A program made the position numbers and the translations under genes. Positions 1,913 to 63,960 of a stretch of 64,000 nucleotides of DNA are shown here, piece by piece (within the stretch, counting starts at the first letter, position 1; the number at the start of each line of letters is the position of its first letter). The notes below the pieces were generated by a model that saw only the letters and a program-made list of their open reading frames with translations, did not search any database and was not told the DNA's origin. Source of the DNA: Selaginella tamariscina (lineage: Eukaryota > Streptophyta > Lycopodiopsida > Selaginellales > Selaginellaceae); contig PUQB01000206.1 in NCBI GenBank assembly GCA_003024785.1, positions 62,001-126,000 of the forward strand, in the 5' to 3' direction.

Positions 1913-2060
1913 GGGTCTCGGCGAAAAGGAGGCTCCGGCTCAGGAGGCTTCATTATTATTCTAGTATATTCGCGGATATTCCAGGTATATTCTAACATAT
2001 TCTAGAATATTCTCAAGAATATTCTAGAATATATAAGTTTTTTTAATATGCCGACTGGCT
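1913..2060 (+). repeat. MULE-1 left terminal inverted repeat with GAATATTC array
   Basis: After the outermost TIR there are about six GAATATTC-like palindromes between 1,966 and 2,034, several joined as GAATATTCTAGAATATTC. This arrangement matches the heat-shock element consensus nGAAnnTTCnnGAAnnTTC. A GCCGACTGG motif follows at about 2,050. The right end has the same two motif types in inverse order. Confidence 0.8.
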
Positions 2061-2091
2061 TAATAAAGCATTATCCTAAACCCTAAACCAT

Positions 2092-4910: not shown

Positions 4911-4959
4911 TTTCTTTGCGGCTCAATTATCCGTATCACAATGTTTTTTTTTTTCACAG

Positions 4960-6880: not shown

Positions 6881-6907
6881 GTGTGTTTGCTTTCCAGAGT
6901 TTACAAA

Positions 6908-9900
6908 ATGGTGAGAGCTTCAAAACGTCTACTAGAGACTGCGCCTGATGAAGAGCCACGGGAAGAGAAGAGGATATCGAAGCAGAAGCGAGGCAAGAGA
7001 GGAGAACCATCTAATGTAGCAAAGGAGGATCCTCCAGTGACTCAGTCTGGAGTAGTACCAGTTGAGCAAGACAGCCTCCACCAACATCACAGATTTCCCG
7101 GAGAGCTCGTCGCAGTTGCCTCCTTCATCCGCTGAGGTTGCAGTCCTGAACGAGCAAGTAGATGACAGAGGCAGTTGAAGCTAGCGAGGACGACTTGGAG
7201 GAGGCAGTCAGCAAAAAGAGAGGCCGCGGGAAAGCTGATTCAAAAGGCAAGAAGGCGAAGAGCGATAAGGAGCCGAAGGAGTTATACAGCATACCGGCGA
7301 GCCTGCATTTGGAGAGCTCAGCAAACCTGCTCGACAAAATTACTATCAAGGGACTTGGTGATCCTCCTGATGTGCCCATCTGTAGAATACATTCAACGAG
7401 GTGGTTCGACGAGTGAACCCAGGGGACTTGGACAGGCTGGTGTCATCGTTGAAGAAGGCTGGTTATCTACGCAACACGGCCTTGTTCATTCTGTCCATCG
7501 GAGATCGACTCACTGCTGAGGAGCTATCGGAGCTGTCGAAGGACACGATTCAGTACGAGCAGCACCGGTCTTTCGAGCAAGCTCTTACTCAGCCGGAGTA
7601 CAAACAGTGGGCTTCAAGGCTCTCAAACAGGAAGTTTAGCTGCTGGGACGGGAACCATAGGCTACAGGCTTTGCAGAAGCTGTACCGAGAGGATGCAGAG
7701 GACAACCAGCGATGGGCTATTCGCGTTCGATCGAGTTTCATCTCCACGGAGAACCTCGACATTCTTCAACTGGTTTCGATGTTCCAATCGATTAACATGT
7801 GAGTATTTTCTTTTTTTTTGTTAAGAGTTTAGACTTACAGTTTCGTTGAACAGATCTTCAGCAACATCTGTGGAAACAACGCTACCACATATTCTCCTCG
7901 CTGTAAAGGCGGTCTGCACTAGTACAGAAGGAACTCAGAAAATCCTCGAGTCACTCACGGAGGTTGATCGTCTTGAGGTGCGGAAGTGGAAGGAGAGTTC
8001 AGCAGGAAAGACGGCTTGGCATCCTCTTCCGAACCTGATCTGCGCAAAGATCCTTTTCAAGGTAACCTCCGATTTAATTTATAGGAAAGAATTTTTAACT
8101 TTTCTATGTGCAGAACGAGATCGACGATGATCTCGACAGAGCAGTCACCAGTGCTAAGGGCAATTCACAGGTTGAGGTGAACCTGAAGCAGCTAGTGTAC
8201 AAGAAGCATGACAAGCGTATGCACAAGTTCCTCTCCATCATAGACCCAGACTTGGGGGAGGAGTGGTTCCAGAAGGTGACGAACATCTCTCATAAGCAGT
8301 GTCGCTGGATGGGCATTGAGAAGCTGTATGCGATGTCAAGGCGAAGATTCCAAACATGCTGCGACTCCGATACTGAACAAGCTCACCCGTCTCGAATCCA
8401 AGGCAGAACAACAGACACTTGGGCTACCGGGCATGCAGGACAAAGAGTGGATCAAGTGGTTCACCTTGGACTTATATTGGAAGGCTGTGCGCGAGGAAGC
8501 CATTCAGATCCTTAAGGGGTTGCGAGAGGATGGTGAAGAAGTTGGAACGGATGTCGACTTCATGAGCTGGTTTGACGAGATGAGAACTCGGAGCAAGTGC
8601 CTGGTCTTTCAGCCCTTCCATGACTGCATACGGTTCACTTATTCGATGGAGCCGAATGAGTTTCTGGAGCGTGAGGATCTGCGCGTCGGATGATATGGAG
8701 GTAAGCTTTCATTCCAGCATTGCTACTGTCTGACTTTGTGTTACAGGTTCATACTGGCGAAGAAAATGCACCGTCTTAGATGATGAAGCTGTGGACAGAT
8801 CATACAAGCGAGCCTCACATGTGGTCGAAGAGCAGAGGAGCTCTAACACCGTTCGAACGGGAGCATGTTCCATTCTGGCTCGACTGTCCGTCGCAACAGC
8901 CACCAGCTTGGGAGAGCTCACTATTCGACGTGCACGGCAATGATCTACCAGCGATTGTTTGGGAGCCGGAGAAGTAGAGGCTATCAAGAAGAGCAAGATG
9001 AAGAAGACGGTGCGGAAGACAACTACACCTGCAAAGGGATCGGGAGCGGGACCAAGCTCTTCTACAGCACCTCCGCCGGCATCGACTTTACAATCAATGA
9101 GGTGCAGCCACTTGTAGCTAGTTTGGACATCAAGGACGACCTGATGACCTTCATCCCGACCCTGGCTGCATCCCGTGGATCCTACGACCTGGCTGTGTGC
9201 GATATGGAGGAGATGAGCAGGTCTTTCTTCGAGCCGGGTGCTTCCCAGAGGTGTACACCAAGCTCCGACAACAGGTTGACAGAACATACGGTTGAGTCAC
9301 AAACGGTGTTCCAGGAAGTGGTAGGTGAATACGGCTTCAACCTCATCATCCTCGACTTGCCCAATGAGCTTGTATATGGAGGTGCTAGCATCAACAAGGA
9401 CATTGTGCAGCTAGATCCGGTGAAGTTTGAGGAGGCCTTGCAGTTCAGTGGAATGCACTTGGCAGCGAGTGGTTTCATGGTCGTCTTCGCGAGTTCTCCT
9501 TCTGTTCGGCGGTGATTCAGGCGGCTGCAGTAATCAACTTGGAGGTTGCAGGGACTTACAGCGTTACCGTGCACGAGGCTGGGGTACCGTGACAAAATTA
9601 AGGTAAGCTAGCTATTCAAGTTCAAGTTTAACTTGGTCTATGTGGCAGGATAACTTGTTAGTTCTCTTGGTGCTGCAAAGCTCTGAGAAGAAGTCGAAGA
9701 GGCCAAACCCTCTGGCGTTGACGAACACGATCCTCGTCGACACTGCCGACCGTTTCAGGAGGCTTGGTAAGGAAGTACTTTGCTTTGTTTATCCTAATGG
9801 AAGTTTGTGCAGGATGATGATTCAACCGAAGAGTGTTCGACTCATGCAGCTTTTGATCGAGCGTCTCAGTAGACCTGGCGACCTAGTCTGGGATATTGGT

Positions 9901-10110
9901 TCCGGAACCGGGTCATCGTTGTTAGCTGCCGTCGAGCTCGGAAGGAATATTATAGGAACCGAGAAGAGTTTCGAACTCTCTAGGTTGGCAACAAACAAGC
10001 TCGCAGAGAACATTAGACCAGAGGAATTACCTACTCAAACACCTCCACGTCCAAGCGTAACTGGTGGTTCGAGAACTGCAGCTTTACTTAAGATGAAGAA
10101 GAAACTTTAG
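6908..10110 (+). pseudogene. MULE-1 ParB/Srx-DNA methyltransferase gene, broken
   Basis: The start MVRASKRL at 6,908 leads into a charged, low-complexity tail. The ParB/Srx-like domain follows in one exon (7,401-7,798): VRRVNPGDLDRL, KKAGYLRNTALFI and the hallmark WDGNHRLQAL at about 7,650. Further exons with GT-AG borders match MULE-2: introns at about 7,799-7,853, 8,061-8,113, after 8,699 (to about 8,747), 9,603-9,648 and after 9,766. The C-terminal half resembles N4/N6 DNA methyltransferases: FNLIILDLPN in the place of DPPY (about 9,340), LAASGFMVVFAS, then PGDLVWDIGSGTGSS (about 9,880) for S-adenosylmethionine binding and LGRNIIGTE. At least four frame breaks lie outside the ParB exon and final exon. 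It ends at 10,110 with AATAAA-type signals just after. The role is probably DNA marking or binding for the transposon. Confidence 0.82.
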
Positions 10111-10189
10111 CTAATGTATATTGAGTAATAAATTAAGCTAATATAAAAAAAATAAAAAGAAATACAACAGTTTTAATAGAATTCTTTTT

Positions 10190-10304
10190 TGCCGACTGAG
10201 GCCAATACTGCCGACCAGAAAGAATATTCCAAAATATTCTAGAATATTCTTGAATATTCGAGCCCAGGCCTCCTGGGCCCCAAGCCTCCAAAATGGCGAC
10301 ACTC
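10190..10304 (-). repeat. MULE-1 right terminal inverted repeat with GAATATTC array
   Basis: GCCGACTGAGG and GCCGACCAG (10,191-10,217) are followed by four GAATATTC-type palindromes (10,221-10,259) and the outer TIR ending in AAGCCTCC...GACACTC. The order mirrors the left end of the element. Confidence 0.8.
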
Positions 10305-10313
10305 AGTGGATGT
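10305..10313. repeat. Right 9-bp target duplication of MULE-1
   Basis: AGTGGATGT, identical to 1,904-1,912. Confidence 0.88.
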
Positions 10314-13470: not shown

Positions 13471-13473
13471 ATA

Positions 13474-13484
13474 TGGTATTGGAG
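13474..13484 (+). promoter_or_regulatory. Primer-binding site of the miniature LTR element
   Basis: TGGTATTGGAG lies three bases after the LTR. The downstream LTR at 14,812-14,928 is followed by TGGTATCAGAG, the initiator-Met-tRNA type site common in plant Copia elements. Confidence 0.7.
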
Positions 13485-14250
13485 CTCGATTGTAGATGGA
13501 ACAGAGCCGTCGCCAGCTCCAAGTTCTACTGCTGAGGTACGTGACTGGAATCTCCGGGATTCCAAGGCTCTACTGCTGCTGAGGTACGTGACTGGAATCT
13601 CTGGGATTCCAAGGCTCTGCTGCTCCATCCATTCCCAAATCCACTGCAGCAGCACTTTGGAAATGGTTGAGCTCGATTGTAGATGGCGACGGCTCTATGG
13701 TATTGGAGCTCGATTGTAGATGGAACAGAGCCGTCGCCAGCTCCAAGTTCTACTGCTGCTGAGGTACGTGACTGGAATCTCCGGGATTCCAAGGCTCTAC
13801 TGCTGCTGAGGTACGTGACTGGAATCTCTGGGATTCCAAGGCTCTGCTGCTCCATCCATTCCCAAATCCACTGCAGCAGCACTTTGGAAATGGTTGAGCT
13901 CGATTTAGATGGAACAGAGCCGTCGCCAGCTCCAAGTTCTACTGCTGCTGAGGTACGTGACTGGAATCTCCGGGATTCCAAGGCTCTACTGCTGCTGAGG
14001 TACGTGACTGGAATCTCTGGGATTCCAAGGCTCTGCTGCTCCATCCATTCCCAAATCCACTGCAGCAGCACTTTGGAAATGGTTGAGCGACACCTATGGC
14101 ATCAAGAGTGAAATGGATGTTCTACTGCTGCTGAGGTACGTGACTGGAATCTCCGGGATTCCAAGGCTAGAGGAAGTATTGCAATGCTCCAGGTTCTACT
14201 GCTGCTGAGGTACGTGATTGGAATCTCCGGGATTCCAAGGCTAGAGGAAG
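13475..14250. repeat. Tandem duplications inside the LTR element
   Basis: Two to three copies of a roughly 200-225-bp block are arrayed head to tail, followed by shorter partial copies. Each contains CTGCTGAGGTACGTGACTGG, GGGATTCCAAGGCT and the start of the gag region (CCATCCATTCCCAAATCCAC). The duplications lie between the primer-binding site and the retained gag segment. Confidence 0.85.
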
Positions 14251-14257
14251 TATTGCA

Positions 14258-14752
14258 ATGTGCCTGTCCTCGAATGTATTATTTGCTGCTCCATCCATTC
14301 CCAAATCCACTGCAGCAGCACTTTGGAAATGGTTGAGCGACACCTATGGCATCAAGAGTGAAATGGATGTCTTCAACGTCCATTCACAGCTAGATTCCTT
14401 GAGGCTAGAGGAAAATGGTAGTATCCAGACTCACATTGCCAAGCTCCAGGGATTTTTCACACAGCTTGCGGCTACTGGGGCGAAGCATTGTCTCACGGAT
14501 GAGCAGCAGAGGCTGCGACTCTACAAGTCCTTGCCGGCTAGTTGGAAGAATGCAGTTGAGAGCTTGCTTCTCCAACCAGGGATGACTTGGGCAGATGCCG
14601 TGAGGAGTCTTCGCAATATTGAAGCCATGCGAAGTGAGAGGGCGGAAATGCCACATGCTATGTATGCTTCACAGGCTCTTGGTGATGCCAAAGTGGCAAA
14701 AACGTATGCAGCAGCAAATGCCCAAAAAGGGCTTTCCGTTTGTGTCCGTTAG
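14258..14752 (+). pseudogene. Copia-type gag remnant of the miniature LTR element
   Basis: The frame encodes a segment with ALWKWLSDTYGI, LDSLRLEENGSIQTHI and the LYKSLPASWKNAVESLL block, typical of the Copia gag (UBN2/Retrotran_gag_2) fold. No zinc knuckle, protease, integrase or reverse transcriptase follows before the 3' LTR. It belongs to a gag-only (TR-GAG-like) fossil element. Confidence 0.8.
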
Positions 14753-14928: not shown

Positions 14929-17205
14929 ATATGGTATCAGAGTTATGGTTGGATGGCAGGTAGGGATGTGTGGTAGGCCCGGACTGGCAATATGGTATCA
15001 GAGTTATGGTTGGATGGCAGGTAGGGATGTGTGGTAGGCCCGGACTGGCAGGTAGGGATGTGTGGTTGGATGGCAGGTAGGGATGTGTGGTAGGCCCGGA
15101 CTGGCAGGTAGGGATGTGTGGTTGGATGGCAGGTAGGGATGTGTGGTAGGCCCGGACTGGAAGGTAGGGAGAGTTATGGTTGGACTGGCAGGGATGTGTG
15201 GTTGGATGGCAGGTAGGGATGTGTGGTTGGATGGCAGGTAGGGATGTGTGGTAGGCCCGGACTGGCAGGTAGGGAGAGTTATGGTTGGACTGGCAGGTAG
15301 GGATGTGTGGTTGGATGGCAGGTAGGGATGTGTGGTAGGCCCGGACTGGCAGGTAGGGAGAGTTATGGTTGGATTGGCAGGTAGGGATGTGTGGTAGGCC
15401 CGGACTAGCAGGTAGGGATGTGTGGTAGGCCCGGACTGGCAGGTAGGGATGTGTGGTGTGTTCAGCTTAGGGGGGAGTGTTAAAAAACTAAGCTGAGGTA
15501 GGGATGTGTGGTTGGATGGCAGGTAGGGATGTGTGGTAGGCCCGGACTGGCAGGTAGGGATGTGTGGTGTGTTCAGCTTAGGGGGAGTGTTAAAACTAAG
15601 CTGAATATACACAGGGATGTAGGGATGTGTGGTAGGCCCGGACTGGCAGGTAGGGATGTGTGGTGTGTTCAGCTTAGGGGGGAGTGTTAAAACTAAGCTG
15701 AGGTAGGGATGTGTGGTAGGCCCGGACTGGCAGGTAGGGAGAGTTATGGTTGGATTGGCAGGTAGGGATGTGTGGTAGGCCCGGACTAGCAGGTAGGGAT
15801 GTGTGGTAGGCCCGGACTGGCAGGTAGGGATGTGTGGTGTGTTCAGCTTAGGGGGGAGTGTTAAAAAACTAAGCTGAGGTAGGGATGTGGTTGGATGGCA
15901 GGTAGGGATGTGTGGTAGGCCCGGACTGGCAGGTAGGGATGTGTGGTGTGTTCAGCTTAGGGGGAGTGTTAAAACTAAGCTGAATATACACAGGGATGTA
16001 GGGATGTGTGGTAGGCCCGGACTGGCAGGTAGGGATGTGTGGTGTGTTCAGCTTAGGGGGAGTGTTAAAACTAAGCTGAGGTAGGGATGTGTGGTTGGAT
16101 GGCAGGTAGGGATGTGTGGTAGGCCCGGACTGGCAGGTAGGGATGTGTGGTAGGCCCGGACTGGCAGGTAGGGATGTGTGGTGTGTTCAGCTTAGGGGGG
16201 AGTGTTAAAACTAAGCTGAATATACACAGGGATGTGTGGTTGGATGGCAGGTAGGGATGTGTGGTAGGCCCGGACTGGCAGGTAGGGATGTGTGGTAGGC
16301 CCGGACTAGCAGGTAGGGATGTGTGGTAGGCCCGGACTAGCAGGTAGGGATGTGTGGTAGGCCCGGACTGGCAGGTAGGGATGTGTGGTGTGTTCAGCTT
16401 AGGGGGACTGGCAGGTAGGGATGTGTGGTAGGCCCGGACTGGCAGGTAGGGATGTGTGGTAGGCCCGGACTGGCAGGTAGGGATGTGTGGTGTGTTCAGC
16501 TTAGGGGGGAGTGTTAAAACTAAGCTGAATATACACAGGGATGTAGGGATGTGTGGTAGGCCCGGACTGGCAGGTAGGGATGTGTGGTGTGTTCAGCTTA
16601 GGGGGAGTGTTAAAACTAAGCTGAGGTAGGGATGTGTGGTTGGATGGCAGGTAGGGATGTGTGGTAGGCCCGGACTAGCAGGTAGGGATGTGTGGTAGGC
16701 CCGGACTGGCAGGTAGGGATGTGTGGTGTTCAGCTTAGGGGGAGTGTTAAAACTAAGCTAAATATACACAGGGATGTGTGGTTGGATGGCAGGTAGGGAT
16801 GTGTGGTAGGCCCGGACTGGCAGGTAGGGATGTGTGGTAGGCCCGGACTAGCAGGTAGGGATGTGTGGTAGCCCGGACTAGCAGGTAGGGATGTGTGGTA
16901 GGCCCGGACTGGCAGGTAGGGATGTGTGGTGTGTTCAGCTTAGGGGGATTGGCAGGTAGGATGTGTGGTAGGCCCGGACTGGCAGGTAGGGATGTGTGGT
17001 TGTTCAGCTTAGGGGGGAGTGTTAAAACTAAGCTGAATATACACATAACCCGGGGAGTGTTAAAAACTAAGCTGACACCGGTGTGAGAGGTCTCGAGTTC
17101 AATCCCCGGCCCGGATTGGCAGGTAGGGATGAGAGGTCTCGAGTTCAATCCCCGGCCCGGATTGGCAGGTAGGGATGTGTGGTCCAACCATAAGCTGAAC
17201 ACACC
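14929..17205. repeat. Minisatellite made from LTR-element pieces
   Basis: More than fifty copies of TGGCAGGTAGGGATGTGTGGT alternating with AGGCCCGGAC (combined unit about 31 bp), interrupted at intervals by TTCAGCTTAGGGGGAGTGTTAAAACTAAG, that is the polypurine tract plus LTR start. The units derive from the region right after the primer-binding site. Long open frames on either strand here are artefacts of the repeat. Confidence 0.9.
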
Positions 17206-17334: not shown

Positions 17335-18380
17335 TACATGCATTCAGAAGAGTCGAGAAACTAACGTGGTCCTTGCAAAGCCATCGCGCGAAGCACCTCC
17401 ATGGCACGCTTTCCATGCCCAGATCCCGCATACGATGTGATCGTTGAGTTCCAAGCTACCACATCTAACACAGGCATTTGCTCAAAGAGTTTCTTCGCTC
17501 TCTTTATATGTCCAATCATTGCAGACCATGAGAGAAGGTCCCTCTCTGGCATCATACAAAAGATCTCCCTCACTTCGGCAATCTGCATGACGTGCACAAA
17601 TCCAGTAATCTATGATGTCCATGTGATGGAATCCTTCGCAGGTATTGATTGAGTAGAAAGGCTGCCTCCTGCATTTGTCCTGGCTGGGCATATCCAGATA
17701 TCATCATGTTGTACGAAACTAGATCATGTTCCTGCATCTCTCTCTCTCGAAAAGCTCTATTGCTTCCTTCAGATACCCACTCATGATGGAAGTCCATGCC
17801 ACCAAGTTTTGCTCCTCCATTGTATCGAACAGTTTCCTCGCTTCTTGTAAATCACCTTCTTGGGAAAATGATTCCACCATTGTGCTCCATGATATCACGT
17901 TAAACTCTGGCATTGCATCGAAGGACCTCACTTCAGCAAATGCTCTTTATGGGTAAATGCTATAAGCATTGTATTCCAAGAGATAATAGACCTTCTCAAG
18001 AACAGATCCCACGCATCAGTATCATACACATCTAGAAGAATTCTCCAGGACACAACGTTCCGCACGGGCATGCTGTCAAAAAGTTCCTGAGCTTTTTGTA
18101 AATGCCCCTCTCGGGCATATGCTGCAAGCAGGGTGTTTACAGACATTTCAGTATACTCAGGTATCTGGCCATAGACGCATTTTTCTTGTTCGATTTCACC
18201 ATTTTGTGCAAGTATCCCCAGCATAGAAGTGCATGCAACGGAGTTCTTCTCTGGCATCGTTTCGAAAGTCTTCTTAGCATTGTACACTTGCCCATTCACG
18301 GCATATCCCACAAATAAGATGGTCCAGGAGAAATAATTGGGTTGATCTATAGCATCAAACACGAGCTTTGCTTCCTACCG
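17335..18380 (-). pseudogene. PPR protein fragment, copy A
   Basis: Pentatricopeptide-repeat proteins bind organelle RNA and guide editing or processing. Minus-strand blocks show successive 31-35-residue repeats: SWTILFVGYAVNGQVYNAKKTFETM, AREGHLQKAQELFDSMPVRNVVSW, MVESFSQEGDLQEARKLFDTM, DLLSWSAMIGHIKRAKKLFEQM and VVAWNSTITSYAGSGHGKRAMEV. The tail ends in a short LLNACNHV segment at about 17,360. Frame changes split it into at least six pieces, and no E or DYW editing domain follows. Related copies lie at 50,060-51,680 and at 55,010-55,256 plus 63,286-63,960. It is a broken member of a locally duplicated PPR locus. Confidence 0.85.
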
Positions 18381-22657: not shown

Positions 22658-23792
22658 TCAATAAATTTTGAGAATGCAACACGTCACAATGCTGTCTGTT
22701 GCATTCCGGACCTCCAGATTCATCTCATCGTGCAGGATTCTAAACTTCATTTTCAGCACACCGAATGCCTGCTCCACAACCACACGCGCCTTGGAGACTT
22801 CGTAGTTGAACATCGACTCTGCAGGTGTCCAGTGCCTTGGGTTTCCCATGTACGGTGCCGTCACCCACGGCCTACACCGATATGCCTTGTCTGCCACTAG
22901 GTAAGGTGATATCTCCCTCCCATCCCCCAGCACCATGCGCGTTGTTGCAGCACGCTGCCCCGACGACAGCGCTCTTGAAAACCACATAGCCTCCATATTC
23001 TACTCTCGTGCACAGAGCCAGGATATCCTGCATGCAAATCCAAAAACCTTCTCCTGCTGTCTACTATAGCCTGTGCAACAATCGTATACCTGCTCTTTCG
23101 ATTATAATAGTCATTCCCATGCTCCACTGGCCGACGAATGTTGAAGTGTGTGCAATCCAATGCCCCAGCAACATTTGGTAATTTGGAAAGTTGTTCAAAT
23201 CCAGCAATACTCTCCATAACCTCTTCCAAATGACTTGGCCATTTCAACTTATATCTGAATACTCGGGTGATTGCCTCGCAGGTCCGTTTAAAACATTGAA
23301 CTGCTGTTGATTGACCAATAGCAAACCGTTCTGATAAATCCAAAAAGCTCGGATTATTTAACAACTTATATAATGTGCAAGCAACTTGAACAACAACCGG
23401 CACAGCAAATCTGTAGTTTGTGTCTTGATGTTTCAAGTCCGCAACAAGCATCCGACATAACCAAAGAAACCTCTCCTTAGACATTCTAAAAATGTTCTCC
23501 AACGCTCCTCATCATAATAAGCCATTAAGAAATTATCAAACCATGCAATACTACGTGGCTTCACCCACCAAGGCCCGACATCCCTATATCTACAAGCTAC
23601 AAAGAATCTATTCTCTTCAAGAAACCACATATCTAAAGGATCAAATAATATTCTATCTTCACATCTTGCTCTCTTAACAGGTCTACTACGACTTTTAAAT
23701 AACTCTTTAAATAAAACAAAAAATAAAAACATAAACTGAAACGATGCTTCAAATAACTCATCAACATCACCTACATCTAATTGATAATCCAT
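22658..23792 (-). pseudogene. PIF/Harbinger DDE transposase, broken
   Basis: The N-terminal part has WFDNFLMAYYDEERW, then SKERFLWLCRML. The catalytic core shows GALDCTHFNI (first Asp), YNRKSRYTIVAQAIVD and RFLDLHAGYPGSVHESRI (second Asp), and SPYLVADKAYRCRPWVTAPY. KARVVVEQAFGVLKMKF contains the expected terminal Glu. All catalytic residues are thus visible. Frame changes occur at about 23,500 and just after HESR at about 23,000, so the protein is not made as one frame here. The length, about 370 residues in total, is normal. Its partner is the Myb-like gene upstream at 23,935-25,015. Confidence 0.88.
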
Positions 23793-23934
23793 AATTAATT
23801 AACTTCTTATACTAATGATGTCCCTCGTTCTCGCTCTCACTTTTAGCTAATCGAGCTGATATTCAAAAAATATAAAATGTGTTAAAACCATGAAACATGC
23901 AACAACTAAACTATAATGAATGCAATATCTAATG

Positions 23935-25015
23935 CCAACTTTAGTTTTACCTTCACGCATCTCCATTGCAGTTCCCATCCTCTTCATGCCTTCTGCCATA
24001 ACTCCCAACACCCCCAGTAGCCCAGCCCTCTCTTCTTTATCAACACAAACTCGCTCTCGCTCAAGTTCCACCCACTCCTTATCGAGCTCCATCTTCAACG
24101 TGTCTCTATGAGCTTGCGACTCAGAAATATGTAGCAAAACCTTCCCTTGATTTTCTAAGAAGCTCTAAGCGTGTCTACAAGTAACTTTGTACTCTCGTTG
24201 ATTCGCTTCAAGCCCTTTGCCTTTCCAGTACTTCCAGGAGCTCTATCTCCACGTGCAGCAGTTGAAGTGTCACTTTGGAGCTCGTTTTCTTCTTCTGCTT
24301 CTTCTATGTGTTCACTCTCCGGTCTACTGCTATCAAACATTTTTGTAGGAGTCATCACTGGTCGTCTCTGCTGCACCTGTCCATTACCTTGTATGTCCTC
24401 TCATCCATAGTAGGAAGGTTCTCTTTCTTACGCTCTGCAGGAGTCATCTTAAAGTAAGCTCCACTGCCAGTATGAGTTTGATAATCGTGTATCATACGAT
24501 AATCCGAGAGTAAATTCTCCCACTTAAGGCGACATTGCTCTGCAGTCCTATCCACGTTCTTAATCACTAACTCTGCAGCAATCTTCTTCCACTTAATGTC
24601 AACCTTTTCAAACTTGTCCCGTGATGAAGAAGATTGTTCTTGACGAAGCATCTCTTCTATTTTGGCAGTGATTAAAGCGTCAATCTCATGATCCCTCCAG
24701 TTTGGAGCTCTCTTCCTCTTTTTTGAAGGCTCTCCACCTGAAGTTGGAGGAGCCTCAGCTATTGGTGTTGTTTCAGCATGTGCAAAGAAAGGTGTGGGAG
24801 TAACAATTGGTGTAGAATTAAATGCCGGTTGCAGAGGAGTTGGTGAGGGAATAGCTACTGAAGGTGTGGGAGTACTTATTAATGGTGTGGCAGAAGGTGT
24901 AGAGGGAATACTCCTCCTGTACAAAATTTACATTCTACTGCTCAAATGTTGTCCAATCTATTGCAAAAATATATGCATACTGTTACCTGGCTGCACTAGA
25001 ACCTCCTCGTGCCAT
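23935..25015 (-). pseudogene. PIF/Harbinger Myb/SANT-like DNA-binding protein, slightly broken
   Basis: The start MARGGSSAA at 25,015 is followed by a short intron (about 24,986-24,916) and a proline/threonine-rich stretch. A trihelix Myb/SANT-like domain comes next: APNWRDHEIDALITAKIEEM, KWKKIAAELVIKNVDRTAEQ, CRLKWENLLSDYRMI (24,480-24,730). The C-terminus, after a frame change near 24,365 and another near 24,160, is acidic and then coiled-coil-like (LKMELDKEWVELERERV). In this superfamily such a protein helps the transposase reach the nucleus and the DNA ends. Confidence 0.85.
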
Positions 25016-29259: not shown

Positions 29260-30180
29260 ACAGAAGGATGATTCTGTCGATGTAGCAAAAGGCTGTTTGA
29301 GTACAATCTCAACAGGACACGCAAATTAATCAGGTACACGAGTTATACTTAGGTACCATATATACAATTTATTTTACAAGACTCACGAGGTGTGAGTACC
29401 GAGGAACATAAGGTGAGAAGTTTATACAATAAATACGAGTGTGGAGAGACAATTAGAATGCGGTCGGAAGGGGTCATTTCCTGCTCGTTACGGCGATGGA
29501 TCGTGGACCTTGAGGGCGAAAATATAGAAGGCTGGGACTACGTTGCACGAGAAGGTGTCCCACTGGTTGGAAGGGATGAGAACGGCAACAAGGCTGTACT
29601 TTGGCAAAACTTGCTTTGCACGCTCTCCATAACGGGTGCACAGGAGAAGGTTAAGACAGCTGGTGTGGTTGTCAACTTGGTTTTCCCGTTTGTCAAGTCC
29701 GGGACGAAGAGGTGCAAAGGCATTATTATCCAAGAGCTTTTACGGGGTTCTCACGTGGTTACTATGTGAGGATTGTTGAGGGTGAGGATGGAATGCCTGA
29801 GCCAATCCTGCAGGACAGGTCAGGAACGACGACGTCATCTTCCTCAGTTGTAATATGCAAGACAGCTTGTTGCGAAGTCGGCTATATGGACCGAAGTCAA
29901 CTTACGTAGGCTGGCCTGTGTATCACAAACTACGGTCCATGGAGATGTAATCTCACGTATGGGGAGGGCTTAGTAATGCTAGTGGGGACTACTTTCTCTT
30001 GCTCACGCAGCACCGAATGGGGCGCATATTTTCCAATGGGACATGGGAATGTGTGCTTACAATTGTTTTGCGAGCCAGAGACTAGAAGAGCTATCCAGGA
30101 TGCCGGGTACGGCGTGTAATACCACCCCATTTCATGAGTGTTAACGGCACACAGCCTTGCCCCTATGTCTACGATAAGCT
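29260..30180 (+). pseudogene. Unrecognised gene, copy U1
   Basis: I do not recognise this protein. The best preserved stretch (29,490-29,750) reads RRWIVDLEGENIEGWDYVAR, then REGVPLVGRDENGNKAVLWQ, a NLLCTLSITGAQEKVKTAG stretch and VVVNLVFPFVKSGTKRCKGI. Further downstream, in other frames, come LRHRLRIVEGEDGMPEP-like and SLVHATK..GAHTI..WDM-like blocks and an end near VIPPHFMSVNG. Two other copies (46,766-47,760 minus and 53,700-54,445 plus) preserve the same blocks with different breaks, so the coding strand is well supported. No signal peptide, membrane segment or known motif is evident. Confidence 0.6.
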
Positions 30181-46765: not shown

Positions 46766-47760
46766 TTAGTCGTAGACATAGGGGCAAGGATGCCTGCCGT
46801 CAACACCCATGAAATGGGGTGGTATTACACGCCCGTACCTGGCATCCTCGATAGCTCTTCTAGTCTCTGGCTCACAGAAACAATCGTAAGCACACATTCG
46901 CATGTCCCATTGGAGAATGGTATGAGCCCCATTCTTTGTTGCGTGAACAAGGGAGAAAGTAGCATTACCAAGCCCTCCCCGTACGTGAAAACTGCATCTC
47001 CATGGGACGGTAGTTTGTGATCCACAGGCCAGCCTAGGTAACAAGCTGGTCTTACATATTACAACTGAGGAGGAGATGAAGGTCGTCGTTCCCTGGCCTG
47101 TACTGCAGGGTTGGCTCAGGCAATCCATCCTCACCCTCAGCAATCCTCACATAGTAACCCGTAAAAAGTTGGAGAATAATGCCTTTGCACCTCTTCGTCC
47201 CGGACTTGACAAACGGGAAAACCAAGTTAACAACCACACCAGCTGTCTTAACCTTCTCCTGTGCATCCGTTATGGAGAGCATGCAAAGCAAGTTTTTCCA
47301 AATTACAGCCTTGTTGCCGTTCTCGTCCCTTCCAACCGGTGGGGCACCTTCTCGTGCAACGTAGTCCCAGCCTTTCATGTTTTCGCCCTCAAGGTCCACG
47401 ATCCATCGGCCGTGACGAACAGGAAATGGCCCTTCCGACCCTGTAAGTGCATTCTAATTGTCTCTCCACATTCATATACTATGTTCACACCTCGCGAGTC
47501 CTGTAAAATAAATCCGTACATACGGTACCTGTCTAAACCAGAAACTAATGCAAGTATTAAATTCTAACTTGTGTACCTCATTAATTTGCAACTTGTGCAT
47601 TTTGTCCTGCGTTGTTGAGATTGTACTCAAAGAACCTTTTGCTACCTCAAGAGCATCATCCTCCTGTAGAAAACCTTGGGTTGAAATGACAAATATACAG
47701 AGAGAGGAGGGAACCTTATCAACATCAACAATCATTATAAATTTCATTTACAATAAATTT
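46766..47760 (-). pseudogene. Unrecognised gene, copy U2 (inverted)
   Basis: The best preserved copy of the family: minus-strand frame 47,399-47,052 reads DLEGENMKGWDYVAREG, then APPVGRDENGNKAVIWKN, LLCMLSITDAQEKVKTAG and VVVNLVFPFVKSGTKRCKGI. Downstream frames (to 46,766) give SLVHATKNGAHTILQWDM and VIPPHFMGVDG. An upstream exon-like frame at about 47,700-47,570 contains TQGFLQEDDALEVAKGSLST and KMHKLQINEVHKLEF. Breaks separate these parts. The flank at 46,610-46,680 (ACACTATCTGCTGCTGG.CCAC) is also shared with U1 and U3, so whole loci were duplicated. Confidence 0.6.
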
Positions 47761-55582: not shown

Positions 55583-55591
55583 CACCTTCCT
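55583..55591. repeat. 9-bp target duplication of MULE-2, left
   Basis: CACCTTCCT, repeated at 62,947-62,955. Confidence 0.85.
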
Positions 55592-55800
55592 GAGGATTAG
55601 CAAAAACCTTCCTGAGGATTAGCAAAAACCGGGCTTCGTACAACGGGCTTTTCGCATATTCCCGAATATCCAGGAATATTCTGTCAAATAAAAGGGAATA
55701 TTCTAGAATATTCTGCCAAGTAGATTATCTTTAACTTTCATATAAAATGCCGACCAACAAGTGAAAAACGCTAATTATTTGCCGACTAGACTTTACTATA
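55592..55800 (+). repeat. MULE-2 left terminal inverted repeat with GAATATTC array
   Basis: Two 22-bp copies of GAGGATTAGCAAAAACC(TTCCT), GGGCTTC, then GAATATTC-type palindromes at 55,655-55,720 and GCCGACCAAC, GCCGACTAG at 55,747-55,790. Confidence 0.8.
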
Positions 55801-55810
55801 CCGACTAAAC

Positions 55811-58800
55811 TTAAAAAGTCGCAGGTTCGACATTGCGCTTGCAACCAACCAATAACCGATGCACTTCTGCTGGAGTAAGGGTCCGCCTCTGTAAGAAGTA
55901 AGTAATCGTTGGGTCAATCCAAGAACATGAGTGTACACAAAATACATGTGTTGGCAGGGGCTCCAGTTCTTGGCTTTCTGAAAAGTTGCACAAGTGCATG
56001 ACGGAACAGAAATTGTTACCTTAGCAGATTGCATGCCTGCAGAGACAATGAAGGCCTCAGTCTTCCCTCTTTGAACCACCTCCACGTTGTTGATCCGACC
56101 TTGAAGAATCTTTGCCTGGTTGTAATGTTTCTCATGTTCCTTGGACATTCTTGTTGGTGTTCGCACACTCCGTCCATGGTATGTTGGTACTCTATGTGCT
56201 CCCTCTCCTCTTGGTGGTGATGGTGTTCGATCCATTCGGCTACTACTGTCGTCTACCATTTCTTCAAATCCCTCCAACTTGAATCCTGCTTTCAGAAGAG
56301 CTTCAACCTCATTTGCATTCAAGTTTGTTCCTTTTTGAACTGGCCAAACCTCTGGAACTTCTGGAATACTCTCAGGAGGAATCCCTGCATATGGTCGTCT
56401 GAAGCAACAAGAATCGCGTGGGCAGAACCATACATCTGATGAGTGAACTCAATGTTCCCAAATGCATTTGTATATTGCCGTCTACCGTGAAATCCTGGTG
56501 CCGGTACACGATGTGGATATCCTATGGGTCTGCCACACTTGCTGTTACCGTCCTGAGTGAGACCTAGACATTTCACCTGACTTGCCTCCCCAATGCGTCT
56601 GATGGCCCACTGAGTCATCAACGTCTCTCTTTCAGTGACATTGACATCTTGAAACTTGAGTTTTTTCCTGCGTGCATTTGGGATGACTTGTTCTGCATAT
56701 TGTGTGTCATGTCTATGTGTACGAAGTGCATCAATCCCATGGTCCCCAGTTGACGGTTGACGAACGGTTCGAACACGAACATTTGTTGTAGAGGCAAACT
56801 CTGGACTTGCAAGATGCTCTTCATCACTAACAAGATTTGCAAAAGTTGTTGGAGACACTGATTTTCCCGCTGAAAGTTTCTGCTGTGCACGTTTCAGAAG
56901 AGTTTCCATGGAAGGACCTGTGCCTGAATATCTCCCTTCAAATGATGCCTTGACCTTTGCACTTTGGAAAACAGCATCTGTTAAATCTAACATTGTTGCC
57001 TCCAACAAAGGAACACGCTTCGTCAGCCTTGCTCTTCGTGCTCTTGCATGAACAACTTCGGAGTTGTTAGTGGTAGGCACATTCGCAACACCATCTTCTG
57101 TCAAGTCAATTATCTCTGTCATGGAAATATGATCTTCATGTCTTGCCCACCATGACAGCCATGTTTGCAAAGCGCTAACGTTACTGGACCTGCCTTCCCA
57201 AAATGACTCCAACATTACTCGTCGTTCCAACTTATCTTGGTTGGTTAGTGCTGCAGGCCATGAGCGTGCAAGGTTCATGTGCTCCTCCCTGTGTTCCTCA
57301 AGTATCCACTTCTTTGTAACTTGACGCACTGACTGCATGTAATGGAACAAACAACTCCTTTCTCTTCCTCTCATCTTTGACCCATTGTTGAAAACTTGAC
57401 GCAATGCTAACCAAATTGCACCTGACTCATCTGACATGAACCCCGCAAAGTTCACATTATGAAGTCCTTGCTTGCTGCACACTTGAAGCATAGTGTTCAA
57501 AAATTTGATCACCGCCACACTATCCTCCCTGATCATGTCACCATAAGCAAGTGTCACCATCGACCTTAAACTACACAAACATAAGTGCATTATATTAGTA
57601 AGTATTTTAAAACATAGATATGTTAATACTTACAATGGATCATAGAGATGTATTCCCAGTGTACACCAATCATCAATACGATATGTGTGGTCTAGCACCA
57701 CCCACTGCTGTTCGAGATCACCTCCAGATTGACACCTTCTAATGTAGTCTATTCCGGATCCTGGGCCGGCAACTGTCATTTTGAAGATTAAAGGCTGCTC
57801 TTCAGCTCCGTTGAGGTCCATTCCGGGTATGTGGATAACATGTATGAATGGGATTGATAGCTTCTTCTTTAACTGCAGAAGTCCTTCGTAACCTTCTTTG
57901 AAACGAGTGTCTCTTGTTCTAGCCTGAGATATCCATTCTCTTGTTCTACATTGGAAAGGTTAAGCATCTCCAAAAGGAAATAATAATTTTTTTGCTTACC
58001 GGCGGTGATTTGTGAGTGGTAGTAGATATGACAGAACCTTGTCGTATGATACATCTCCAGAATCTGTTACCAGTTTTTCCAAAATTATATTGCGTGCTGC
58101 TTGAAACTCTATGACACGTTGATTAGTTCTTGGGGTTGCAGCGACTGCTTTGTTGATTGTCTCCTTAGCTTTGTCTTTAGAGACCATGGATTCGGGTGGT
58201 CTACGTGGATGTTGATGTTCTCCAAGATGGATGAAAAGCCTCGTGCATGTGATATCATCTGGAATTATGTAATATGCAACAAAGGAGCATGTCTGCACTA
58301 GAAGGGGCTCATTGTTGCAATGCACACACTTCATTCCAAGCACTCTACCATCTGAAGATAACTGGACTTTATCAATGGTGCCCTTAAATTGGCAGTCATT
58401 TGCTTCTTACTGAAGCTGATGAACGGACATGTTTCCTTTACGCATTTCATGTGACCAATACATGAACTGCGACTAACACGAGCTGGAACATTCCAATGTG
58501 TTGTGCAGCGTTGAGTCCAGTAATCACACCCATCCTTCCTATTCATCCCTTTGTACTTGTCCTTCATTGTTTCGTGTGCTGGCAACTCGTAAATCACATT
58601 TCCGTTGCAATCTTCTGGGATCTCAGCAACTTGCTGAATCGATGACGAAACCACCAGTTGCTTCCCAATCCTACATCTCTGACTATTGCGAAGTATTATT
58701 ATCAAAATTGTCCGATCTGTTGTCTCCAACCGGAATAGTGGTCCTTTGGAAGGAAGAAGTGTGTAATACACAAAACTGCTAGCTCTTGCCCCTTCTGGTT

Positions 58801-58975
58801 CTACCTCAACATTCACAGCATCTCCACCAACAACAGACATCAAATGCAGCACTTTAAAAGATTGCCAAGGTGGAATGTCAAATGCAGACCTGAAATCTGT
58901 TTCAAAGACAAATGCAATACCATCTTCATCTGCAGGGAAGTCCTTGTCAACACCATTGTAACTGATTCTTGCCAT
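55811..58975 (-). pseudogene. MULE-2 transposase (DDE plus SWIM), nearly intact
   Basis: The start at 58,975 (MARISYNGVDKDF) is chosen because similarity and composition begin there rather than at the upstream ATG. Order: an N-terminal domain, a zinc-binding-like SSCIGHMKCVKETCPF (about 58,430-58,475), GMKCVHC and EHQHP (58,200-58,335), RVIEFQAARNIIL, intron, LIFKMTVAGPGSGIDYIRRC, and WVVLDHTYRI with the first catalytic Asp (about 57,685). Another intron precedes FAGFMSDESGAIWLALRQVF (second Asp, about 57,425) and CLFHYMQSV. A long C-terminal region includes KCLGLTQDGNSKCGRPIGYP. The SWIM finger CTCATFQ...SPCQHMYF lies at about 55,945-56,000, and the tail ends at 55,811. Frame changes at about 58,405, 56,400 and 55,915 interrupt it. 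It is divergently transcribed with the methyltransferase gene, and both probably share a promoter. Confidence 0.88.
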
Positions 58976-59416
58976 GTAGCAAAAATGGAACAAACAAAAG
59001 TTAAAATTCAAAGACAATGAACATATTACACACGATGGTTAATGTGTTTGTTAGTCGTGAGGCAATCATTTCATTGACAAATATTAAATCATTTCATTGG
59101 CAGGCCGACTGGGGTGGATTGTTCCAGATCCAATCAACATTTTGACCGAGGTTGACTGTTCCAGCCCCAGTCAGCATTTTGACTAGGGTTGACTGTTCTA
59201 GTCCCACCTAGCATTTTGACTGGGCCTCGCTTCGTTCCCAGTCCCAGACTGGGCCTCCCTTTGTTGCCAGTCCCAGTCGGCATGCCGACTGGGACTTACA
59301 GCAACTGCTCTCTCAGTCGGCACGCCGACTGTGAGGGCTAGTATGTTTTTTTAATTTTTATTAAACATCTTTGAACATTTATTACAGTTTTTTGTTAAAC
59401 CTTATTGCTTTTGTAG
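58976..59416. promoter_or_regulatory. Shared promoter region of MULE-2 with GTCGGC/GCCGAC palindromes
   Basis: A 441-bp gap between divergent starts. CCCAGTCGGC-ATGCCGACTGGG at 59,271-59,294 lies in a perfect 24-bp palindrome; CTCTCAGTCGGC-AC-GCCGACTGTGAG at 59,310-59,335 is near perfect; a further GCCGACTGGGG is at 59,103. Between them GACTG.TCCAGTCC-like half-sites recur (59,150-59,260). The same hexamers recur at both ends of the element and in MULE-1, which suggests binding sites for an element-encoded protein. Confidence 0.75.
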
Positions 59417-62400
59417 ATGCGCTCTTCACAACGTTTACAAGAAAAGAAGATGAAGGAGCCTACTGAGAGAGAAGCAGAAGCTAGAGCTGCAATTCAGAGA
59501 GGGCGTCGGGGTCGTGGGAGAGGAAGTAGGAAGCTGGCTGTGGTTCAGGAACAAGGACCTTCAAGTGATGCTCCAGTTGAACAGGCAAGCCAGCAGGACT
59601 GGTCAGGAGAGCAAGAGGATGTAGTTCAACCCCAACAAGAACAATCAGACTTTGTTGAAGAAGTTGAGGATGATGTCTTACCACAGGAGACACAGGAGCA
59701 GACAGAAGGCACACAAGCCTCATGCGCAGTGACTTTGTCGAGTGACGAAGAGGATGAACCCAAGAACAAGAAGAGACGACGCAAAGCTGCTGGAGATTCA
59801 GAGGCTGCTAAGAAGAAGAAGAAGGGTAAAGCAGAAGTGCCAGATAATGAGGAAGTTTACAACATTGCAGCCAGCATGCATTCGGAGAGTGCAGTGCGTC
59901 TTCTCGCGAAGATCACAATCCGAGAATATGGAGAGGCACCGGATGTCCCTATTTGCCGAATTCTGGGAAATGAGCAGGTGCGGAGAGTCAATCCAGCGGA
60001 TCTGGAATCTTTGACTAGGAGTTTCAAGAAGGCAGTTGGTTATTTGCGCAACACCACTCAGTTCATCCTTCAAGTTGGGGACCCCATGACAGATGCAGAT
60101 CTGGCAGCATTGAGAAGCGATGAAGCGATGTATGCTCAGCATTTGGCTTTTGAGGAGGAGCTTCAGTGACATGTTCCGGCAATGGGCACCAATGCTTTCG
60201 ATGAAGAAGTTCATCTGTTGGGATGGTAATCACAGGCTAAAGGTGCTTCAGAAGCTGTACACAGAAGACACGGAAGATAAGAATCAGTGGGCAGTGAGAG
60301 TGCGTTCAGGCTTCATCCGTGCTGGGGTCATGGATAATCTTCAGCTTGTGACAATGTTTCAGCAAATTAATAGGTAAACATAGTGACCTCTAGATCATAG
60401 GATTAACTAACTTCGAGATTTTCAAATATGCAGTTCCTCCGCAACGGCAGTGCAAACCACACTGCCACATCTTCTGCTATCTGTGAAGACATGTTGCACC
60501 AGTGAGGAGGGCACAGCGAAGATCTTGGCCAGGCTCAGTGACAAGGAACGAGATGACATAAGAAAGTGGAAGGAAAGCGACTGGACAACAAGCTTGGCAT
60601 CCACTTCCGAATTTGATCTGTGCAAAGATTTTTTTGAGGTACCACGTCTCACACTTATATACTTAGTTGATTACGTCTGTGAATTACAGAGTGAGATTGA
60701 GGATGATCTTGAGAAGGCTGCAAGGGCATCCAAAGGCAACAAATACCAGGAGCAACAACAGGTCTACATTAAGCATGACAAGCGCATGATGAAGATCTTA
60801 GCCATCATCGATCCTGCATTGGGTGAAGAGTGGTTCGACAAGGTGACCCAAATCACATGGAAACAATGCAGATGGATGGGGTTGGAAAAGCTGTACGCGC
60901 TTTCAAGGGCGAGAATTCCAAACGAGACGAGAATCATGTACTTCAATAAACTGGTACGTCTCGATCTGAAGAGAGAGCAAGAGACACTTGGATTGCCGGG
61001 TGTTCAGGATAAGGAGTGGATAAGGTGGTTTACTATCGATTTGTATTGGCGGCGATCAGAGAGGAGGCAGTACAGATTCTCACGGGACTCATCGAGGATG
61101 GCGAGTGGAGCAGGCCGGTTACAGATTTCACGACTTGGTACGATGAAGTGCGGGTAAAATGCAAGAACGTGATGTTCCAGCCATTCCATGAGTGTGTGAA
61201 GTTCACTTACTCCATAGAGCCGAAAGAGTTCCTCGAACACGAAGAGACAGCAAGAAGGATGATTTGGAGGTAAGGATGATCTTCTTGACATTGTTACATT
61301 CTGACACTACTATATGTTCATTACAGGTATGTCGCAGCGAGAAAGGTGCCTCACACACAGACTATGGTATTCTGGTCAGATTACATGGAAGCACCACACA
61401 TGTGGTCGAAGACAAGATCTGGCCTGACAGAGTTCGACGTGTAACGTACCGTTCTGGCTTGATTATCCACCTGGGCAACCACCAACATGGGAGAAGGATC
61501 TCTACAATGAACACTCAAAAGATCTCCCATGCATCTCATGGGATCCGGCAGAGGTCGACTTCATTAAGAAGACAAAGGCCAAGGCAAAGCGGCGTCAGCC
61601 TGTGCAGCAGTCAAAGAAGACCTCAGATACAGTAGCTGGCACCTCCACTACTCGCGATCCAGCTGCCTTCTTCAATTTATCTGAAGTGCTACCATCGCAG
61701 GGAACCATGGACATCAAGGATGACTTGGTCACATTCGTCCCTTCACTTGCTACAACTCGAGGTGATAATTTCTTGGCGATTGATGACATCGAGGAGATGC
61801 AACAGGCCGTGCTCACGGATGAGAAGGAAGAGGAGGTTCCTGACGCTAGACTGGTTCCTTATAGAAAAGTTCAGACACAGGTGGCCAGGTACCATACAGC
61901 TGACAGCCAGACTCGCTACCAGCATATTGCGGGAGAATATGGTTTCAACTTGGTGATCTTCGACCTTCCAAATGGGACCTTGCCAGGAAATACAACGAGT
62001 GATACGCCATACCTCTACCTTGATCCAGTGAAGTTCGATGAAGCACTCCAGTTTGCAGGTATGCATATGGCTGCAAATGGTTGGTTGGTTGTGTTTGCTG
62101 CAGCAAACACCTGGGATCAAGTTGTCCGAGCTGCAAGTGTGGTGGACCTTCAACTTGCTGCAACGTACTACATCTACAGAGGGCGTGGTTGGGGCTACCG
62201 CAACAAGATGAAGGTACTTTTTTCTTTATTCATGAAGTTCATTAATGATTTTTGATGTTTTAACAGGAGAGCATCCTGCTCCTTCTTGTCTTCCAAGATG
62301 CATCTAGAGGATTGCGCGATAATCCGCTGCGTTTGTCATCAACAATTCTTGTTGATAATCCTGAGCGGTTCCAAGAACCATGGTAGGCATTTCATTTCAA

Positions 62401-62729
62401 CAATTTAAGTATTTACCATTATCTTCACATGCAGGATGGACTACCAACCGAAGAGCACTCGATTGATGCAGCTCGTGATAGAACGACTCACCCGGCCAGG
62501 TGATCTTATCTGGGATATAGGCAGTGGTACGGGGTCCTCAATGCTTGCAGCTATCGAGCTGGGGAGAAACATTGTTGGGACTGAGAAGAACCCTGAGCTC
62601 GGGAGAATTGCTATGAACAGGATTAAAGAGAACATCCAGCCAGAGGAAATCCCAACCCAACCAATAGCGACGTCAAGTAGGACTGGTGGTTCACGAATTG
62701 CAGCATTGCTCAATCGTAAGAAGAAGTGA
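59417..62729 (+). pseudogene. MULE-2 ParB/Srx-DNA methyltransferase gene, nearly intact
   Basis: The ATG at 59,417 (MRSSQRLQEKK) follows an AG acceptor-like site. Residues 1-150 are charged and disordered (RGRRGRGRGSRK, KNKKRRRKAAG), perhaps with nuclear signals. Then comes a ParB/Srx-like domain: DVPICRIL, VRRVNPADLESL, GYLRNTTQFIL, CWDGNHRLKVLQKLY (60,210-60,260). A helical linker domain has SSATAVQTTLPHLLLSVK, HDKRMMKILAIIDPALGEEW and GLPGVQDKEWIRWFTIDLYW. The methyltransferase has FNLVIFDLPN (about 61,950), MAANGWLVVFAA, YYIYRGRGWGYRNK, then MDYQPKSTRLMQLVIERL, PGDLIWDIGSGTGSS (SAM motif, about 62,515) and LGRNIVGTEKNPEL, the beta-type motif order of N4/N6 DNA methyltransferases. Introns: 60,376-60,432, 60,639-60,689, 61,270-61,326, 62,214-62,266, 62,383-62,434. 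Single-base frame changes lie near 60,170, 61,050 and 61,440. Confidence 0.88.
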
Positions 62730-62814
62730 CAAGTGTTGAATTGTACTCTTTGGTGTTGAAATAAAACTTTAATAATACAGTATAAACATGGCTATGATTT
62801 AAATTTTTTTGTTG

Positions 62815-62946
62815 TTAATTGCCGACTGAGCCAAAATCCTAAATTCTAAGAATATTTAGGAATATTCTAAGAATATTCTGGTAGATTCTTTAGAATATTC
62901 CGGGTCCAAGCCCGGAAGCCCGGAAGCCCTCTTTTTGTTGGGACTC
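62815..62946 (-). repeat. MULE-2 right terminal inverted repeat with GAATATTC array
   Basis: GCCGACTGAG at 62,821, four to five GAATATT-type palindromes at 62,846-62,910, CCCGGAAGCCCGGAAGCCC and the outer end TTTTTGTTGGGACTC. Confidence 0.82.
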
Positions 62947-62955
62947 CACCTTCCT
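62947..62955. repeat. 9-bp target duplication of MULE-2, right
   Basis: CACCTTCCT, identical to 55,583-55,591. Confidence 0.85.
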
Positions 62956-63285: not shown

Positions 63286-63960
63286 ACCCATAAAGGGCAT
63301 TTGCTGAAACGAGGTCCTTCTGATGCCAGAGTTTAACGTGATACCATGGAGCACAATGGTGGAATCATTTGCTCAAGAAGGTGATTTACAAGAAGCGAGG
63401 AAACTATTCGACACAATGGAGGAGCAAAACTTCGGTGGCATGGACTTCCATCATAAGTGGGTAACTGCAGGATTTTCGAGAGAGATATGCAGGAACATAA
63501 TCTAGTTTTGTATAACACGATGATATCTGGATATGCCCAACCAGGACAAATGCAGGAGGTAGCCTTTCTACTCAATCAGATACCTGGACATCATAAATCA
63601 CTGGATTTGTGCACGTCATGCGGATTGCCGAAGCGAGGGAGATCTTTTGTATGGTGCCAGAGAGGGATCTTCTCTCATGGTCTGCAATGATTGCAATAAA
63701 TGCACAGAATGGGCATGTAAAGAGAGCGACGAAACTCTTTTGAGCAAATGCCTGTGTTAGATGTGGTAGCTTGGAACTCAATGATCACATCGTATGCGGG
63801 ATCTGGGCATGGGAAGCGTGCCAAGGAGGTGTTTCATGCGATGGCTTTGCAAGGAAACAAGCCGAACCACGTTAGTTTCTCGACTCTTCTGAATGCATGT
63901 AACCATGTAGTTTTGCTCTCCAACATGTACAAAGAAATCTAAGAAGGCCAACAAGAAACA
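63286..63960 (+). pseudogene. PPR protein fragment, copy D, right part
   Basis: Continues the fragment at 55,010-55,256: PEFNVIPWSTMVESFAQEGD, LQEARKLFDTMEEQN, MISGYAQPGQMQEVAFLLNQ and, near the end, VLDVVAWNSMITSYAGSGHG, KRAKEVFHAMALQGNKPNHV, SFSTLLNACNHVVLLSNMYK. Frame changes lie between the blocks. The sequence after 63,900 to the window end is the reverse complement of the P450-PPR junction seen at 13,260-13,350 and 50,660-50,770, so the same duplicated block probably continues in inverse orientation beyond the window. Confidence 0.83.

Follow-up and report, generated by a model that had tools for sequence, protein, structure and literature searches.

We analysed a window of 64,000 nucleotides from Selaginella tamariscina (assembly GCA_003024785.1, contig PUQB01000206.1, positions 62,001 to 126,000 of the forward strand), which contains two Mutator-like elements (MULEs), element A and element B, that belong to two diverged families. 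Both families are abundant and recently mobile, and in both an accessory gene located next to the transposase gene has been kept by purifying selection. As we read it, the element would consist of two divergent genes, one encoding a transposase with a SWIM finger and the other an accessory protein of about 1000 residues. The latter is predicted to comprise a ParB/Srx-like N-terminal region, a conserved middle, and a C-terminal methyltransferase domain of the kind that binds S-adenosylmethionine (SAM). By analogy to VANC of the VANDAL transposons, we propose with moderate confidence that the accessory protein is a self-recognition and anti-silencing factor that acts at short sites within the element's own DNA.

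Element A spans positions 55592-62946, starts with GAGGATTAGC, ends with GGGACTC, and is flanked by an exact 9-bp target site duplication, CACCTTCCT, at 55583-55591 and 62947-62955. Element B occupies positions 1913-10304 between two exact copies of the 9-bp sequence AGTGGATGT at 1904-1912 and 10305-10313. Within the window, each of the two 9-bp sequences occurs exactly twice on the plus strand, at the flanks of the respective element. Terminal inverted repeats are present, short and imperfect (GAGGATTAGCAAAAACCGGGC versus GAGTCCCGACAAAAAGAGGGC, compared by eye). The 9-bp duplications and the SWIM finger of the transposase indicate that the elements are Mutator-like. The centre of element A is several hundred bp shorter than that of most family-A copies fetched from the genome.

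The distribution of both families was determined by searching the genome (1391 contigs with 300,702,823 bases in total). The last exon of the family-A accessory gene yielded at least 151 matches, and at least 98 of these, including the window copy, were 100% identical over all 97 residues. With the ParB-like part of the first exon of family B, at least 150 matches were obtained, at least 90 of them ungapped and 100% identical over at least 135 residues (identical matches of both families were counted by eye). Twenty family-A copies (L009-L028) drawn from the 100%-identical matches differed from the window copy by 2–28 substitutions (median 5) and 8–48 gap openings over the right half of approximately 3.7 kb. 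Exact 9-bp duplications were present at the ends of 11 of the 14 copies in which both ends were read; of the remaining three, L023 and L024 showed no such duplication, and L028 runs into N. In all 11 copies with a duplication the DNA aligned to both genes (with a 44-bp gap in L014), which supports the earlier claim, made from the letters of the window, that the accessory gene belongs to the element. The exact duplications, taken together with the near-identity among the copies, strongly indicate that the family was recently mobile.

The transposase gene of element A is located on the minus strand at 55786-59038, with its start codon at 58975, and is divided into three exons in the spliced form of copy L020; its product displays DDE-like motifs and a C-terminal SWIM finger. 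In both elements the transposase gene lies on the strand opposite to the accessory gene. The transposase copy in element A of the window is frameshifted, and that of L020 is open over 972 residues, as far as the fetched DNA reaches. The C-terminal piece matched the SWIM finger profile at an E-value of 7.6e-4 and 19.4 bits, slightly under the cut-off of 19.6, as the sole profile match at E≤10. No transposase-family profile matched the element A transposase at this threshold, and a PDB sequence search using the transposase core gave no match. The D/E motifs of the protein (SDESGAIWLALRQVF...CLFH) show what we take to be a resemblance to MULE transposases.

The accessory gene of element A, on the plus strand, has its ATG at 59417 and its stop codon at 62729 and consists of six exons, so that the multi-exon gene inside a MULE with 9-bp duplications, as described by the sequence-only reading, was confirmed with exact coordinates. 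Exon 1 (59417-60373) encodes a charged N-terminus and the ParB/Srx-like region with the motif CWDGNHRL, exon 2 (60434-60638) is a region in which the window copy has gaps, and exon 3 (60690-61269) encodes the conserved middle region. Exon 4 (61327-62213) contains DLPN at the position of motif IV, and exon 5 (62267-62382) is followed by exon 6 (62435-62729), which encodes the SAM-binding motif I, DIGSGTG, and the match to N6_N4_Mtase. Frameshifts occur near 60167 in exon 1, near 61050 in exon 3, and near 61437 in exon 4. The accessory gene of element B (6908-10110, plus strand) likewise has six exons (6908-7798, 7854-8061, 8114-8700, 8747-9602, 9649-9766, and 9813-10110), and all five intron positions are common to both genes. 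Thus, a second, diverged copy with the same exon plan is indeed present at 1,913-10,304. WDGNHRL, DLPN, and DIGSGTG, the three motifs to which the same reading had pointed, are common to A and B.

As assembled, the accessory genes of both window elements are frameshifted. Among 21 family-A rows (20 fetched copies and the window), an unbroken spliced frame was found in one, L023, encoding 1011 residues; exons 1-4 of copy A have eight bases fewer than this copy if a 12-bp deletion in L023 is set aside. Three of four fetched family-B copies (L039, L040, and L042), the four having been selected for long open first exons, possess an unbroken frame of 992 residues. The frame of copy B in the window is shifted at many positions, and this copy differs from the four relatives by 36–39 mismatches and 19–23 gap openings. 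In a column test on the window and 19 fetched family-A copies (L017, with 41 substitutions and about 35 gaps, was left out as older), gaps also occurred in 9 of 13 exon columns displaying recurrent substitution, compared to 0.5 expected (p ~1e-10 if the columns are independent). This clustering of small gaps at columns that are polymorphic between near-identical copies indicates that some of the damage seen in the window is probably not biological and results from consensus error between near-identical repeats. Based on its mismatches to its relatives, some of the decay of copy B is probably real.

The accessory proteins of A and B share 543 of 983 aligned residues (55%). Identity by part was 59% in the ParB-like region, 57% in the middle, 60% in the methyltransferase, and 34% at the N-terminus; the first three parts are all constrained, the N-terminus less strongly. 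At the nucleotide level, identities at the three codon positions were 0.65, 0.73, and 0.37, and 60 of 207 fourfold sites were identical (0.29, with about 0.26 expected by chance), indicating that these sites are near saturation. The NG86 (Nei-Gojobori) method returned a dN, the nonsynonymous divergence, of 0.38, and no finite value for dS, its synonymous counterpart. As the proteins are still 55% identical though the fourfold sites are near saturation, we concluded that the accessory gene is maintained by purifying selection in both families.

The C-terminal part of the accessory protein matched the Pfam profile PF01555 (N6_N4_Mtase), with an E-value of 6.2e-10 and 39.8 bits for the last exon of A (profile positions 165-220 of 221) and with 35.7 bits for the whole protein of B, in each case above the cut-off of 26.7. 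In both families the match was limited to the SAM-binding end of the domain (positions 164-220 of 221). The methyltransferase part also matched phrog_67 (E-value 7.4e-12), and a PDB sequence search with the SAM-binding end returned MboIIA (E-value 3.9e-4) and DpnA at the top, followed by the ribosomal-protein L11 methyltransferase (0.0012) and CcrM (0.0032); a second such search gave similar matches. Judged by these matches, a methyltransferase domain of prokaryotic type is present, and the earlier assignment as an N4/N6-type methyltransferase domain holds for the SAM-binding end, to which the profile match is confined. A search of 7996 candidate proteins with an alignment of the methyltransferase part gave one weak match, P0003, at an E-value of 0.41. 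The catalytic motif of PF01555-type enzymes is [DNS]PP[YFW], and enzymes of this kind normally need the aromatic residue of DPPY. The corresponding position, located by eye in the alignment, lacks this motif in both families and reads DLPN in A (FNLVIFDLPN) as well as in B (FNLIILDLPN). With DPPY replaced in both families, base methylation by the accessory protein appears doubtful, and so does the earlier suggestion that the element marks its own DNA; SAM binding is plausible.

The sequence-only reading had also named a ParB/Srx-like domain and had beforehand tied this name to a profile match. In the N-terminal region, CWDGNHRL and the order of elements resemble ParB by eye, and it is on such motifs that the label ParB-like is used here. 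The Pfam profile PF02195 matched neither the single exons, nor the joined region (E≤10), nor the whole B protein. A six-frame scan of the genome with this profile gave no match at E≤1, with 11 of 14 control genomes matching; no plant sulfiredoxin was listed either, so that intron-split genes may escape such a scan. The PHROGs search yielded no ParB match for this region, and the PDB sequence search returned two chance matches at E-values of 0.38 and 2.4. Using hhalign, the region aligned to one ParB protein at an E-value of 0.52, and to four phage ParB-like proteins and a piece of one at 0.056 with a probability of 1%, though the helix register was as expected; a control against an unrelated methylase gave 0.14, which places the ParB alignments at noise level. 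A structure model built from three sequences had a predicted local distance difference test (pLDDT) score of 33.5 and was worthless. A search with an alignment of the ParB-like region gave one significant match among 2297 candidates. This is P0002 (E-value 5.8e-11), a fragment of 178 residues that derives from a metagenome contig and contains CWDGNHRL. Pfam found no ParB match on P0002, and the end of the fragment looks like read-through into an intron.

None of 7998 scored candidates in a whole-protein homologue search reached E≤0.01, and pattern-based scans of viral contigs and of prokaryote genomes revealed no confirmed relative. A recent bacterial acquisition is unsupported, as no viral or prokaryote relative was confirmed and the sole significant one is the metagenomic fragment P0002.

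Short sequence motifs form arrays in the non-coding DNA of the elements, a feature also characteristic of VANDAL/VANC systems. The window contains 20 copies of the octamer TGCCGACT, of which 5 are in element A and 15 in element B, compared to a first-order Markov expectation of 0.85 and a maximum of 5 over 60 samples. All 20 start in non-coding element DNA (the copy at 55780 lies directly against the stop codon of the transposase gene); the gene spans and the remainder of the window contain no copy. The intergenic region of element A (59039-59416) contains TGCCGACT at 59275, 59283, and 59315, and one copy of the 18-bp palindrome CAGTCGGCATGCCGACTG at 59274. In the corresponding region of element B (5015-6822), 13 TGCCGACT were found, and ten of these are arranged as five inverted pairs with a spacing of 33 bp. 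In L020, tandem repeats of 37 and 39 bp are located upstream of the accessory gene, and the 39-bp units are centred on a perfect CAGTCGGCATGCCGACTG. This palindrome occurs 1135 times genome-wide (reversed control, 0). Sixteen loci of the 20 fetched family-A copies were counted; 15 contained 4–11 palindromes and L017 contained one, as does the window. Among the matches listed, CAGTCGGCATGCCGACTG lies within approximately 4 kb of a listed family-A exon in 6 of 8 contigs (C10, C58, C69, C72, C90, and C112), and the matches listed for the other two, C1 and C13, include no family-A exon.

For another motif, GAATATTC, 13 occurrences were counted in the window (1.6 expected). Eleven of these lie no more than about 125 bp from one of the four element ends, at spacings of 10–12 or 20–22 bp. 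In element A, these palindromes form an array at the left end (55674-55713; at 55674, 55696, and 55706) and, together with TGCCGACT at 62820, a second one at the right end (62820-62900; at 62860, 62871, and 62893). Element B has a left-end array at 2005-2024 with TGCCGACT at 2049, and right-end sites at 10190-10259 (TGCCGACT at 10190; GAATATTC at 10222, 10242, and 10252). Both TGCCGACT and GAATATTC are common to the two families, which share only 55% identity in the accessory protein. The consensus of heat-shock elements is nGAAnnTTCn, and the end arrays (2005-2029, 10222-10259, 55659-55713, and 62860-62900) resemble it; at three of the four the fit is perfect or has a single mismatch. The host probably tolerates desiccation.

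Self-recognition is proposed based on the VANC-like arrangement, in which a non-transposase gene is combined with arrays that are variable and consist of a short motif specific to the element. The accessory protein would recognise its own element at TGCCGACT, which in family A is embedded in tandem palindromes beside the accessory gene, and perhaps also at GAATATTC at the element ends. The bound protein would function as a sequence-specific factor that holds the chromatin of the element open and thereby prevents silencing, comparable to VANC on VANDAL, and its methyltransferase fold may bind SAM or DNA and leave the bases unmethylated, given the change of DPPY to DLPN. That the protein recognises its own DNA had been suggested before, and the arrays common to both families lend this part new support; we infer the binding itself from sequence. 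A more specific form of the proposal can be put forward only tentatively: the altered methyltransferase and the ParB-like region would load on fast-evolving palindromic arrays, an analogue of parS, to shield or mark the element's own copies, resulting in an anti-silencing system made of prokaryotic parts and convergent with VANC. Several points weigh against self-recognition by the accessory protein. Every Pfam, PHROGs, PDB, and hhalign test of a ParB identity was non-significant, and homology does not fix the substrate of the methyltransferase since the L11 enzyme is among the PDB matches. The end arrays may be bound by the transposase instead, host factors may bind either motif, and the motifs may be plain promoter elements. 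In addition, we know of no methyltransferase domain in VANC proteins, and the mechanism would therefore have to be convergent.

Other roles of the gene and the motifs were considered. An active self-marking, by which N6-methyladenine or N4-methylcytosine is put on element DNA via the unusual DLPN motif so that the mark protects or labels the element, appears unlikely. The order of motif IV followed by motif I agrees with beta-class enzymes, and the SAM-binding motif is kept in both families. The authors of the Ectocarpus study, in the part of the article available, propose such marking for similar proteins (PMC12477816). However, in both families the base-stacking aromatic residue of DPPY is replaced by Asn and the first Pro by Leu, and only 56 of 221 positions of PF01555 were matched. 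We are similarly sceptical of a role as a transposition co-factor that helps the transposase to assemble at the ends, like the second MuDR protein, with the methyltransferase fold as a mere scaffold. The motifs do also occur near both ends of A and B, and in maize, integration apparently depends on an element protein whose function is unknown, according to the accessible part of PMC6446971, but most TGCCGACT are central, beside the gene, and not terminal.

Somewhat less doubtful, and compatible with the other explanations, is that host heat-shock factors act at the end arrays and that the AGAATATTCT repeats drive transcription under stress, with no connection to the accessory protein. These repeats fit heat-shock elements: TTCNNGAANNTTCNNGAA is present without mismatch at 10237-10254, and sites with a single mismatch were found at 2012, 10227, and 55659, compared to 0.18 expected in the window. 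The right end of element A, in contrast, lacks such a site, and the TGCCGACT arrays are left unexplained. Finally, host gene fragments are often captured by MULEs (PMC6446971, accessible part), and the accessory gene might accordingly be a captured passenger without function for the element. The occurrence of the same six-exon gene in two families, with 55% protein identity and fourfold sites near saturation, strongly disfavours this explanation, which we regard as highly improbable.

The window contains several other features. A PIF/Harbinger-type pair at 22900-24927 on the minus strand encodes a DDE_Tnp_4 transposase fragment (E-value 6.3e-17) and a Myb/SANT-like protein (1.7e-12). A Copia-type gag fragment at 14171-14749 (Retrotran_gag_2, E-value 1.8e-17) adjoins direct repeats of 189–227 bp at 13472-14168, and a minisatellite of two kilobases at 14946-17016 has a basic unit of about 31 bp with nested higher-order periods. 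Fragments of pentatricopeptide-repeat genes are located at 17931-18374 and 63724-63942 and are indicative of a land plant. Two related open frames at 29353-29766 and 47055-47453 share stretches such as RWIVDLEGEN and QEKVKTAGVVVNLVFPFVKSGTKRCKGII; they gave no Pfam match at E≤0.01 and perhaps represent another repeated element.

The closest known system is the transposon Sola1-1_Ec32 of Ectocarpus, which, according to the accessible part of the article (PMC12477816), encodes a ParB-methyltransferase accessory protein; similar proteins are cited there for transposons of green and red algae. Its likeness to the elements described here lies in a second gene on the strand opposite to the transposase of a DNA transposon, encoding about 1000-1100 residues with ParB-like and N4/N6 methyltransferase domains as named by its authors. 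In contrast, the present elements are Mutator-like, with 9-bp duplications and a SWIM finger, and reside in a land plant, a comparison made by described architecture alone. They further differ in that ParB is without profile support, motif IV reads DLPN, and motif arrays are described. The concept of ParB-methyltransferase transposon proteins, including the idea of own-DNA recognition, is thus already in print for algae in that article, the only report of such proteins that we found in a literature survey that covered few subscription papers. VANC/VANDAL of Arabidopsis, in the accessible part of PMC5735166, is similar in combining a non-transposase gene with variable arrays of short element-specific motifs, a likeness of arrangement, and the motifs here differ. 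Fungal DNA transposons with TET/JBP genes (PMC12730594, accessible part) likewise encode a DNA-modifying fold, but with another enzyme and in apparently other element groups. With the bacterial and phage beta-class methyltransferases (MboIIA, DpnA, and CcrM), alignment is limited to the SAM-binding end and does not extend to the catalytic motif or to most of the domain.

In the literature covered, mostly outside subscription papers, we did not encounter the setting of a Mutator-like element in a land plant, the pair of young families, the replacement of DPPY that both of them keep, or the motif arrays, and these may be new. Conservation of the methyltransferase fold together with a change in its catalytic motif would suggest that DNA is read or shielded and that no marks are written. 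Two large young families with a putative anti-silencing gene and defined sites at which its product may bind make the escape of a transposon from silencing directly testable. If our proposal is true, the ParB-methyltransferase transposon proteins of algae would extend to a land plant and to another transposase superfamily.

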